Source of the DNA: Gammaproteobacteria bacterium
GTDB lineage: Bacteria > Pseudomonadota > Gammaproteobacteria > UBA9214
Reading direction: 5' to 3'
Assembly (NCBI GenBank): GCA_029860045.1
Contig: JAOUBY010000021.1
Span: 1 to 33,723 of the forward strand
DNA: 33,723 bases
Below, piece by piece: positions 1-5,819 of this stretch. Below the pieces are notes generated by a model. That model was not told the origin of the DNA. It ran no database searches and saw only the letters and a program-made list of their open reading frames with translations. Each line of letters opens with the position of its first letter. Within the stretch, counting starts at the first letter, position 1. Position numbers and translations under genes: made by a program.

Positions 1-172
1 CAAGGATGAAAACCTGGTGGTCGGTTTCAATGTGACCTATGTGCTGGATGTGCTGAACGCGCTCGATACCACCGATGTGGAAATTTTTCTGAGTGATGCC
101 AACAGCAGCGCATTAATTCACCAGCCTGGAGCAGAGGACTGTCGGTACGTCGTAATGCCGATGCGGCTGTAG
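1..172 (+). CDS. dnaN: DNA polymerase III beta clamp, C-terminal end (partial)
   Basis: This is the last 56 codons of the sliding clamp, read in frame from base 2 to the TAG at 170-172. The 5' part lies outside the window. The product is a ring-forming processivity factor for DNA polymerase III. The end of the protein, YVVMPMRL, is the near-invariant C-terminus of gammaproteobacterial DnaN, and the preceding segment with DVLNALDTTDVEIFLSD fits domain III. It is followed after 25 bases by recF, as in the classical dnaA-dnaN-recF-gyrB origin cluster, so they are probably co-transcribed. Nothing unusual is visible in the part present. Confidence 0.95.
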   Translation, partial: KDENLVVGFNVTYVLDVLNALDTTDVEIFLSDANSSALIHQPGAEDCRYVVMPMRL

Positions 173-197: not shown

Positions 198-1323
198 ATG
201 CCTGCACCTGCCAAGATCGCATCAGGCGCACCCGCGCTACTGTCACAGCGCGGACTGCAAACCCTTGAAATCGTCGACTTTCGCAATATCGAGGCGGCCT
301 CACTTACCTTCAGCCCGGGCCTGAACCTGATCGGAGGTGAGAACGCCTCCGGAAAGACCAGTTTACTGGAAGCCATTTATTGCCTGGGGCGCGTGCGTTC
401 CTTTCGAACCCGCCAGCCAGAACAGCCGATACGCTATGGCCAGTCCTGCTACCGCCTGGTGGGAAAGTTAAGCCGGGGGGCAGGACAGTCACTCCCGGTC
501 GGTATCGAGCGCAGCCGTTCAGCACTGACTGTGCATCTGGACGGTGAACCGGTGCGCCGGCTCTCGGACCTGGCCGGCAGCTTTTCTGTCCAGGTATTGA
601 GTGCCGATACGCCGAACCTGTTGAACGGGGGGCCGCGCTACCGTCGCCAGTTGCTTGACTGGGCCCTGTTCCACGTGGAACAGGGTTACCGTGATGTCTG
701 GCAACGCTACACACGCATCCTGCGGCAACGCAACGCTGCCTTGCGGACCCACGCCCATACCAGCCTTGTTACCAGCTGGGACGGCGAACTGCTTGAGACG
801 GCTGCCCAGATCGACGATTTGCGACAAAGCTACCTGCAGCGTTTCGAAGTCCTGCTGGCACAGGAGGTCGCGCAGTTGTTGCCGGGCGCCAGTATCGAGC
901 TGAACTACCTGCCGGGCTGGCCTGGCCATGCCGGGCTGGCCGCAACCGTGGCCGGCGCCCTTGAGAAGGACCGGGCCCACGGTTACACCCGTTACGGGGT
1001 GCACCGCTCTGATTTCCGGCTGCTGATCGATGGTAACGATGTGGCCGGACACTGCTCGCGTGGCCAGCAGAAATCGGTGCTGGTGGCCTTTCTGCTGGCG
1101 CAACTGCGCCTGCAGCAGGAGCGGCAGTCGCCGCCAGGGGCCTTTTTACTCGATGACCTGGGTAGCGAGCTGGATGACGATCACCAGCGGCGCGTGTTGC
1201 AGGCGCTACGTGAGCTGGATGCCCAGGTGTTTGTTTCTGCTATTGAGGGTGACCGGGTGGCGGTGTCGGACTGGCAGAGTGTGGCACGGTTCCACGTGGA
1301 ACATGGCAATATCCGGGAGGTGC

Positions 1324-1328
<5 letters not shown>
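198..1328 (+). CDS. recF: RecF, DNA replication and repair ATPase
   Basis: RecF is an SMC/ABC-type ATPase that binds gapped DNA and helps RecOR load RecA. The 376 residues show a Walker A motif GENASGKT at 47-54, an ABC signature-like CSRGQQKS near 288, and a Walker B FLLDDLGSELD near 314-324. Conserved similarity begins near residue 20 (LQTLEIVDFRNI), so the ATG at 198 gives about 18 extra N-terminal residues over E. coli RecF (357). I see no strong ribosome site there, and the start is uncertain. The gene lies between dnaN and gyrB on the same strand. Unusually, it carries two ParB-type parS palindromes in its coding sequence, encoding FHVEQG (about residue 157) and FHVEHG (about residue 364). 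Confidence 0.93.
667..682. promoter_or_regulatory. parS: parS site 1 (ParB/Spo0J binding centromere site) inside recF
   Basis: The sequence TGTTCCACGTGGAACA is a perfect 16-bp palindrome identical to the parS consensus known from Pseudomonas. The flanking CCC and GGG extend the perfect dyad to 664-685. ParB loads at such sites and spreads to form the partition complex that SMC and ParA act on. The position inside recF, close to the inferred origin, is where parS sites are expected. Confidence 0.9.
1288..1303. promoter_or_regulatory. parS: parS site 2 near the end of recF
   Basis: GGTTCCACGTGGAACA matches the parS consensus at 15 of 16 positions; only the first base differs. The inner 14 bases (1289-1302) are a perfect palindrome. 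It lies about 620 bp downstream of parS site 1 and about 25 bp before the recF stop. Two sites this close in one gene argue against coincidence. Confidence 0.82.
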
Positions 1329-3770
<2,442 letters not shown>

Positions 3771-4195: not shown

Positions 4196-4942
4196 CTATT
4201 TCAGCGTGGTGATCTCGTCCATGCGTGCCTCGATCCAGTCGGCGGCTTCCTCCAGCACCTGTTGTGCCGATTTGCCGTTACTGGTGATCGGGGCGCCAAT
4301 ACGTACCTGGATGACCCCCGGGCGCTTGATGAAGCTGCGCCGTGGCCAGTATTCCCCGCCGTTGTGTGCAACGGGCACGATCGGGAAGCCACTGTGCTCG
4401 GCCAGGATGGCGCCGCCGATGCGGTAGTGGCCTTTTTGCCCGGCCGGGATGCGCGTGCCCTCGGGGAAGATGACGATCCAGATACCCTGTTCCAGTCGTG
4501 CCTTGCCCTGGGTAACCAGTTGTCTGACAGCGGCGCGGCCGGTACCGCGCTTGATGGCGATACATTTCATCAGGGCCAGTCCCCAGCCAAAGAAAGGTAT
4601 CCACATCAACTCACGCTTGGCGACCCACACCTGTAACGGAAAAATCTGTTGCAGGGCGATGGTCTCCCAGGTGGACTGATGTTTGGAAAATACGATGCCG
4701 GCGCCGTCGGGAATGTGTTCAAGGCCCTGAATCTCGTGAGTCAGTTTGCAGGTGACCCTGAGCCACCACAGGATGAAGTTGACCCAGCTTTGCAACAGCG
4801 CCCAGCGTACCCGCAGTGTAAACGGGAAAGTGAACAGCAACAGGATGGCGTAGCAGACAATGGTTACCGGGAACACCAGCCAGAAAGCCAGCGAGCGCAG
4901 CCAGAGTACCAGGTAGGGCGGGTGACTTTCGGTCTGCGTCAT
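4196..4942 (-). CDS. plsC: 1-acyl-sn-glycerol-3-phosphate acyltransferase (PlsC family)
   Basis: The protein transfers an acyl chain to lysophosphatidic acid to make phosphatidic acid at the inner membrane. A hydrophobic N-terminal anchor lies at about residues 10-42. The acyltransferase block I is HQSTWE, with catalytic His88 and Glu93 in the HX4E variant of HX4D. Block III is FPEGTR at 159-164. The length of 248 is typical. The ATG at 4942 overlaps the gmhB stop by four bases (ATGA), so translation is probably coupled. The heptose-phosphatase/PlsC pairing suggests a cell-envelope supply operon. The specific acyl donor cannot be told from sequence. Confidence 0.9.
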   Translation of the reverse strand: MTQTESHPPYLVLWLRSLAFWLVFPVTIVCYAILLLFTFPFTLRVRWALLQSWVNFILWWLRVTCKLTHEIQGLEHIPDGAGIVFSKHQSTWETIALQQIFPLQVWVAKRELMWIPFFGWGLALMKCIAIKRGTGRAAVRQLVTQGKARLEQGIWIVIFPEGTRIPAGQKGHYRIGGAILAEHSGFPIVPVAHNGGEYWPRRSFIKRPGVIQVRIGAPITSNGKSAQQVLEEAADWIEARMDEITTLK

Positions 4943-5484
4943 GTGGCGGTGCTGCCGAGCAGGGATTCGACGGCGCAGTACAGGTCATCAAAGACCGGGA
5001 CGGCGGGGTCCAGTTCGGGCAGGCTGACCGTGCCAAATCCCTTGCCGGTCTTTACCAGCATCGGCAAGGCGCCGGCTGCCTGTGCTGCCTGTATATCATT
5101 GATGGAGTCACCGATTACCGGTACCGATCCAAGCTTGATGTGCAGGCGGCTGGCGATATCAAGTAACAGGCCGGGGGCCGGTTTGCGGCAGTTACAGTTG
5201 TCCCTTGCAACATGCGGGCAGAAAAATACTGCGTCGATGACGCCACCGGATGCCTTCACGCTGCGCTGCATGGTTTCATTGATGCGTGCCAGCGTATCCA
5301 GGTCACATTGCCCGCTGGCGAGCTCCGGCTGGTTCATGGCAACAACGACACGCCAGCCGGCACGGTTCAGACGTGCAATGGCTTCCAGGCTGCCACGGAT
5401 CGGTCGCCACTCGTTTGGTGACCGGATGCAATCATCCGATGACTCGTTGATGACACCGTCGCGATCGAGGATGGCAAGTTGCAT
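4939..5484 (-). CDS. gmhB: D,D-heptose 1,7-bisphosphate 7-phosphatase (HAD family)
   Basis: GmhB removes the 7-phosphate in ADP-heptose synthesis for the LPS inner core. The 181-residue HAD protein has motif I DRDGVIN with Asp7 and Asp9, the zinc loop ligands Cys89, His91, Cys97 and Cys99, a CRKPAPG segment, and motif IV-like GDSINDI. The oddity is motif II: the usual TNQSGIxRG is replaced by MNQPELASG, with Met50 where the family has a conserved Thr. The start ATG shares its A with the TGA of the upstream mazG-like gene (TGATG), and the stop overlaps plsC. The family assignment is secure; full activity is less certain because of motif II. Confidence 0.85.
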   Translation of the reverse strand: MQLAILDRDGVINESSDDCIRSPNEWRPIRGSLEAIARLNRAGWRVVVAMNQPELASGQCDLDTLARINETMQRSVKASGGVIDAVFFCPHVARDNCNCRKPAPGLLLDIASRLHIKLGSVPVIGDSINDIQAAQAAGALPMLVKTGKGFGTVSLPELDPAVPVFDDLYCAVESLLGSTAT

Positions 5485-5819
5485 CAGCTGTCCCTGAATT
5501 CGGAAACGCGAATGCGTCCGTTGATGGTGCGGGATTCGCGCTGTTCAAGTTTTTTCATCTTGTCCCAGAATGCAGCGGCCAGGTCAAAGTCTGCTGCAAT
5601 CGCGGTACCCATCAGCAGGATGAACAGGTCTGCACATTCCTCGACCAGCTCATGCTTGTCCTTGCCCTTGGTGACGCAGGCAGAGATCTCGCCAAGTTCC
5701 TCGGCCATCAGTGCGACCCGGTAGACCAGGTCCTCGCCACCCGTATTCTTGAAATCATGCTTGTCGTGAAAGGCCTGCACGGCATCCAGCATGCGTGTGT
5801 AGGAGTCGGCATCATTCAT
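5484..5819 (-). CDS. MazG-like nucleotide pyrophosphohydrolase
   Basis: This is a small all-alpha NTP pyrophosphohydrolase-type protein of 111 residues. Members hydrolyse (d)NTPs to monophosphates, often as house-cleaning enzymes. The metal-binding signature is present as EELGE (residues 40-44) followed by EECAD with Glu61 and Asp64. It sits between glyS (42-bp gap) and gmhB (1-base overlap), so it belongs to the glyQ-to-plsC run. The substrate cannot be read from the sequence. It is a single-domain protein, much shorter than E. coli MazG. Confidence 0.8.
   Translation of the reverse strand: MNDADSYTRMLDAVQAFHDKHDFKNTGGEDLVYRVALMAEELGEISACVTKGKDKHELVEECADLFILLMGTAIAADFDLAAAFWDKMKKLEQRESRTINGRIRVSEFRDS

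Follow-up and report, generated by a model that had tools for sequence, protein, structure and literature searches.

Predicted chromosomal parS sites inside recF occupy a conserved position in Gammaproteobacteria

The gammaproteobacterial contig JAOUBY010000021.1 (33,723 nucleotides, the whole of which is referred to here as the window) carries two palindromic 16-mers within recF. These are very probably the parS sites by which a ParABS system partitions the chromosome, that is, an origin-region centromere inside recF that is predicted to bind ParB. Their position is probably under ancient selection: it appears to be pinned to the interval between dnaN and gyrB, usually as two sites, spaced by approximately 620 bp, at constant codons of RecF; to dictate RecF residues; to be maintained such that both sites change together and, when site 1 is lost, another site arises next to site 2; and usually to outlive recF. 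The best reading is that the partition centromere of the chromosome is held in place between dnaN and gyrB and that recF hosts it. The location of parS sites within recF is already published for one organism, Pseudomonas aeruginosa (PMC5521831). What is new here, from sequence comparison, is how deeply the position is conserved across the class, how it affects RecF and that the sites usually persist once recF is lost. None of the three was found in the open-access papers searched; the survey by Livny et al. 2007, which is said to be the main one of parS positions, lies outside this coverage.

Results

Two sites in recF and their surroundings

The features of the locus are listed in Table 1. 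An earlier, sequence-only reading of this stretch had placed two 16-mers and a perfect 22-bp palindrome within the recF frame, and all of them are indeed there. Compared with the 16-bp inverted repeat TGTTNCACGTGNAACA, which defines parS, site 1 is exact and site 2 has one mismatch, in one outer base. Since the reverse complement of site 2 is TGTTCCACGTGGAACC, both sites conform to the consensus reported for P. aeruginosa, TGTTCCACGTGGAACM (PMC5098823), which supports the proposal that they are parS.

Table 1. Features of the window at and around the two putative parS sites
Feature	Position	Strand	Details
dnaN (beta clamp), 3' end	1-171	+	cut by the contig start; frame ends ...RYVVMPMRL
recF, host of both sites	198-1328	+	TIGR00611, E=2e-97
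22-bp perfect palindrome CCCTGTTCCACGTGGAACAGGG	664-685	.	encloses site 1
parS site 1, TGTTCCACGTGGAACA	667-682	.	exact match; core 14-mer 668-681; overlaps RecF codons L157-F158-H159-V160-E161-Q162
parS site 2, GGTTCCACGTGGAACA	1288-1303	.	core 14-mer 1289-1302; overlaps RecF codons R364-F365-H366-V367-E368-H369
gyrB, downstream	1356-3770	+	NF011501, E=0; far edge of the dnaN-gyrB interval
282-aa open frame	4649-5497	+	between gyrB and glyS; without a match in Pfam or NCBIfam; possibly not a gene

The gene order around the sites is dnaN-recF-gyrB, and the two sites are spaced by 621 bp. RecF is encoded in a single open frame and scores 326 bits against the curated TIGR00611 cut-off of 172; its start codon is uncertain, the family model starting at residue 20. 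The peptide that ends the truncated dnaN also closes this gene in relatives, for example, in locus L118.

When up to three mismatches were allowed, two matches were found in the window versus 0.13 expected, and none of 100 shuffles reached two. At up to two mismatches, the recF sites are the only matches in the assembly, which comprises 2.4 Mb in 156 contigs and is 91% complete, so that further parS sites are possible in unassembled DNA; the control, the pattern read backwards, gave four matches. The stricter pattern NGTTYCACGTGRAACN without mismatches yielded two matches in the whole genome and none for the control. The sites are thus not scattered around the genome.

The 22-bp palindrome was also considered as an extended recognition site and rejected, its outer bases not being conserved as a palindrome. 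Beyond the 16-mer of site 1, palindromic matches across families are close to the chance level of 25% at most positions, and the 3 bp that each flank adds to the 16-mer to make 22 bp are therefore probably fortuitous. An RNA element at the palindromes was rejected as well, as there was no Rfam match.

The ParA-ParB partner and the distance from the origin

The absence of parB from the genome had been named as an argument against parS. The same genome encodes a standard ParA-ParB pair, which is on another contig and has rsmG and mnmG as neighbors. ParB (L239) has the domains ParB_N, HTH_ParB and ParB_C and the motif GERRWRAA, and ParA has the domain AAA_31. In Caulobacter ParB, R173 and G201 specify parS over NBS (PMC7383237); at these positions (Caulobacter numbering) the ParB of the analyzed genome has GRSRAAVSN and MGHAR, so that both the arginine and the glycine are retained in its helix-turn-helix.

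In the analyzed genome the sites adjoin dnaN and gyrB, and oriC is off this contig; because dnaA is on another contig, the distance from the origin was inferred from the gene order. Four complete relatives (G130, G140, G133 and G209) have contigs that begin inside dnaA or shortly upstream of it; their recF sites are 3.17-3.85 kb from this dnaA-bearing contig start. In G096, which lacks recF, a close parS pair is found at 2.8 kb from the contig start.

Conservation in and outside Gammaproteobacteria

In 140 genomes of the class, approximately one per family, we looked for recF, for ParB and for matches to the strict core GTTYCACGTGRAAC. Of these genomes, 135 had ParB and 123 had strict parS, the most frequent copy number being exactly two; the reversed control pattern hardly occurred in them. 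Comparison of 114 recF genes identified strict parS at both homologous RecF codons in 79 genes, at one in 24 and at neither in 11; the site 1 position is occupied in 94 genes and the site 2 position in 88. The spacing of the pair in these genes is usually 606-669 bp, 621 bp being the commonest value. In class members bearing recF, 187 of 224 strict parS sites lie inside the recF frame. A pair spaced by approximately 620 bp was also seen in named taxa (Pseudomonas petrae, Stutzerimonas kirkiae, Arenimonas caeni and Methylohalomonas lacus); these loci were retrieved with FHVE peptides and were therefore left out of all counts.

The parS sites of Caulobacter and other Alphaproteobacteria have the core GTTTCACGTGAAAC in common with the analyzed genome, but none of the 15 alphaproteobacterial genomes in which both parS and recF were located has strict parS in recF. 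As parS lies outside recF in these genomes, the sampled genomes suggest that only Gammaproteobacteria have the arrangement. Two recF genes of gammaproteobacterial type with the FHVE motif were found on contigs labelled 'Halobacteria archaeon' (L042, JABDRC010000178.1) and 'Rhizobium sp.' (L101, JAIBEO010000244.1), which probably reflects mislabelling or mixed bins.

Five class members (G157, G085, G068, G074 and G116) have parS elsewhere, hence the recF location is not absolutely required. In three of them (G157, G085 and G068; loci L142, L147 and L202), gyrB is away from dnaN-recF, recF has no parS and strict parS is found elsewhere, in G157 at 18-25 kb from parB.

Constraint at the DNA level and RecF residues

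Among RecFs with FHV[EK], we compared the third bases of the preceding codon and of the codons for H, V and E/K with the expectation from the codon usage of each gene. These wobble bases agree with parS at site 1 in 94 of 96 genes (3.7 expected) and at site 2 in 88 of 92 (5.0 expected), with binomial p = 1e-129 and 1e-105, respectively, these p-values ignoring shared descent. The wobble base of the F codon, where parS allows variation, is not fixed. When all 357 testable codons of recF were scanned with no prior choice, the eight parS codons ranked among the nine most constrained; the ninth is at the end of the reading frame.

Where the site 1 DNA is lost, FHV[EK] is found in none of 14 RecFs, which read FYRE, FQTN, FFHY, FYDD, FHHA, FHAE, FYQT, FHSE, FHTQ, FYLD, FYID, YHSS and FYIF. 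Two genomes without strict parS, G198 and G174, have FHNE/FRVE and FHHH/FEVN, respectively. In G225, where strict parS is elsewhere, site 2 still reads FHVEHG and is one synonymous base from parS. One alphaproteobacterial RecF (L301) has FHVE at site 2 in codons that do not spell parS, which shows that the motif can arise without parS. As FHV[EK] is nearly always spelled as parS and is gone where the site is gone, the homologs argue that parS shapes the RecF residues, as had been proposed from the analyzed sequence. RecF would tolerate the imposed residues, usually M/L/V ahead of each site, FHV[E/K] within it and H/Q/P/R following it; since it accepts them, these residues would mainly reflect the centromere and not the function of RecF.

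In three lineages the sites have taken on a variant form, and RecF has changed with them. The recF gene of G109 (L197) has GTTTCATATGAAAC at both places and its RecF has FHMK twice; that of G046 (L013) has GTTCCACATGGAAC at both places and FHME twice; and that of G053 (L212) has GTTCTACGTAGAAC (FYVE) and GTTCCACGTAGAAC (FHVE). The candidate variant cores in L197, L013 and L212 are CATATG, CACATG and TACGTA, respectively. The identity of the variants at both recF positions in two genomes suggests a changed ParB specificity; in an alignment of ParBs from the variant genomes no clear compensating residue was identified. In addition, the two sites of one genome share the Y/R type in 50 of 79 cases versus 30 in shuffles, none of 5,000 shuffles reaching 50, and shared base composition may contribute to this match.

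Sites after the loss of recF or of one site

Twenty five genomes of the sample have no recF over the cut-off, and 14 of these contain strict parS. It is located immediately upstream of gyrB in 13 of the 14 genomes, the exception being G116, and clearly within the dnaN-gyrB gap, which is 59-262 bp long, in 11 of the 14. Among the 13 genomes, seven have a close pair spaced by 26-43 bp, five have a single site and one (L233) has a tandem array. In the array (G125:C48, 1287-1773), perfect parS is repeated at least 12 times at a period of 43 bp; the array directly precedes gyrB, is flanked by parS copies with one mismatch and is not accompanied by recF. Between dnaN and gyrB, locus L215 (G118:C1, 2657-3635) has a decaying recF interrupted by stop codons; this degraded gene still carries the parS-like GTTTTACGTGAAAC near the site 1 position.

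Five genomes lacking both recF and parS (G023, G069, G079, G136 and G137) were considered as counter-examples and rejected: they also have no gyrB over the cut-off, so the origin region probably was not assembled. Parsimony on GyrB trees gave 9-11 changes in the presence of recF, and at least 4-5 when only well supported branches were trusted, many deep branches being weakly supported.

A new parS site within 150 bp of site 2 was found in four of eight genomes that had lost site 1 and kept site 2, and in three of 79 genomes with both sites (Fisher p = 0.001, not corrected for kinship). The appearance of a new site beside site 2 after the loss of site 1 suggests a path from two recF sites to a close pair at the end of recF and then, upon the loss of recF, to a close pair in the gap.

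Discussion

Work on studied relatives suggests how the sites would function. ParB dimers would recognize each parS site, load there as CTP-dependent clamps and spread over the adjoining dnaN-recF-gyrB DNA; ParA, and probably SMC, would thereby get a handle at parS, and newly copied origins would be separated. The closest parallel is P. aeruginosa PAO1, which has two parS sites of the same sequence, parS1 and parS2, within recF, adjoining gyrB and near oriC (PMC5521831, PMC4368675). Its sites parS1-4 are bound by ParB in vivo, with spreading (PMC5098823); parS is required for origin segregation, and one of the four ori-proximal sites is necessary and sufficient for it (PMC4368675, PMC5098823). 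Nine of its ten predicted parS sites are in coding sequences and were mutated with the proteins unchanged (PMC4368675). Of these ten, four are high-affinity sites near oriC, two of them further downstream, whereas the analyzed genome has the recF pair only; in named Pseudomonas and Stutzerimonas loci the recF pair is 630 bp apart. The Spo0J/Soj system of Bacillus subtilis has the same class of 16-bp consensus and a ParB/Spo0J family protein but, unlike the analyzed genome, up to ten dispersed parS sites (cited in PMC4368675); no description of parS hosted in recF of B. subtilis was found in the papers examined. Escherichia coli has a homologous recF in the dnaN-recF-gyrB order, but no strict parS in it, the two positions reading GCFHNEPG and MFTVEKG; it is reported to have no native ParB/Noc homolog and no parS (PMC7383237).

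Could the palindromes be something other than parS? The FHVE segments might be kept for the function of the RecF protein, the palindromic DNA being a by-product of codon choice. The first F is retained in most Gammaproteobacteria even without parS, as in the two E. coli peptides, and the alphaproteobacterial RecF mentioned above has FHVE at site 2 in ordinary codons. However, this would not account for four wobble positions fixed in 94/96 and 88/92 genes versus 3.7 and 5.0 expected, for the absence of FHV[EK] wherever the DNA site is gone, for the joint change to FHM[KE] at both positions in L197 and L013, or for sites that persist as DNA after the loss of recF, and we consider it the least credible explanation, with hardly any weight. 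Nearly as improbable is a role of the palindromes in regulating the dnaN-recF-gyrB operon, as operators or RNA hairpins that would bind something other than ParB. The sites do lie inside the operon, and excess ParB lowers the expression of neighboring genes in P. aeruginosa (PMC5521831); yet E. coli, reported to have no native ParB homolog (PMC7383237), lacks both sites. The sequence, moreover, is the ParB consensus, degenerate at the known Y/R positions, has no further copy in the genome assembly and has no match in Rfam.

A larger, though still small, probability belongs to sites that bind ParB but serve mainly in SMC loading or in local control of replication genes, not in partition. ParB loads SMC in other bacteria. 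Neighboring promoters can be silenced by ParB in other bacteria, but in P. aeruginosa the loss of parB or parS gave no rise of expression next to the intragenic parS1 and parS2 (PMC5521831). In Caulobacter the native parS sites cluster elsewhere, and recF-gyrB is an unexplained hot spot for the insertion of an additional parS site (PMC5815017), which would suit a local role; against it, P. aeruginosa without all four ori-proximal parS sites produces approximately 25% anucleate cells (PMC5098823), and the assembly search gave no other candidate centromere in the analyzed genome. A partition centromere hosted by recF therefore remains the preferred reading. As to the clustering near dnaA and dnaN that the sequence-only reading had proposed as a check, the recF sites of complete relatives are 3.2-3.9 kb from the start of the dnaA-bearing contig.

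This locus is a clean example of a DNA element written into a protein: a chromosomal centromere would determine residues of a repair protein throughout a whole class of bacteria. This is also a warning that conserved motifs of RecF may say nothing about RecF. The genomes in which a site, the gene or parABS has been lost, or in which parS has changed to a variant, provide a natural experiment that may show why partition sites stay by dnaN and gyrB.
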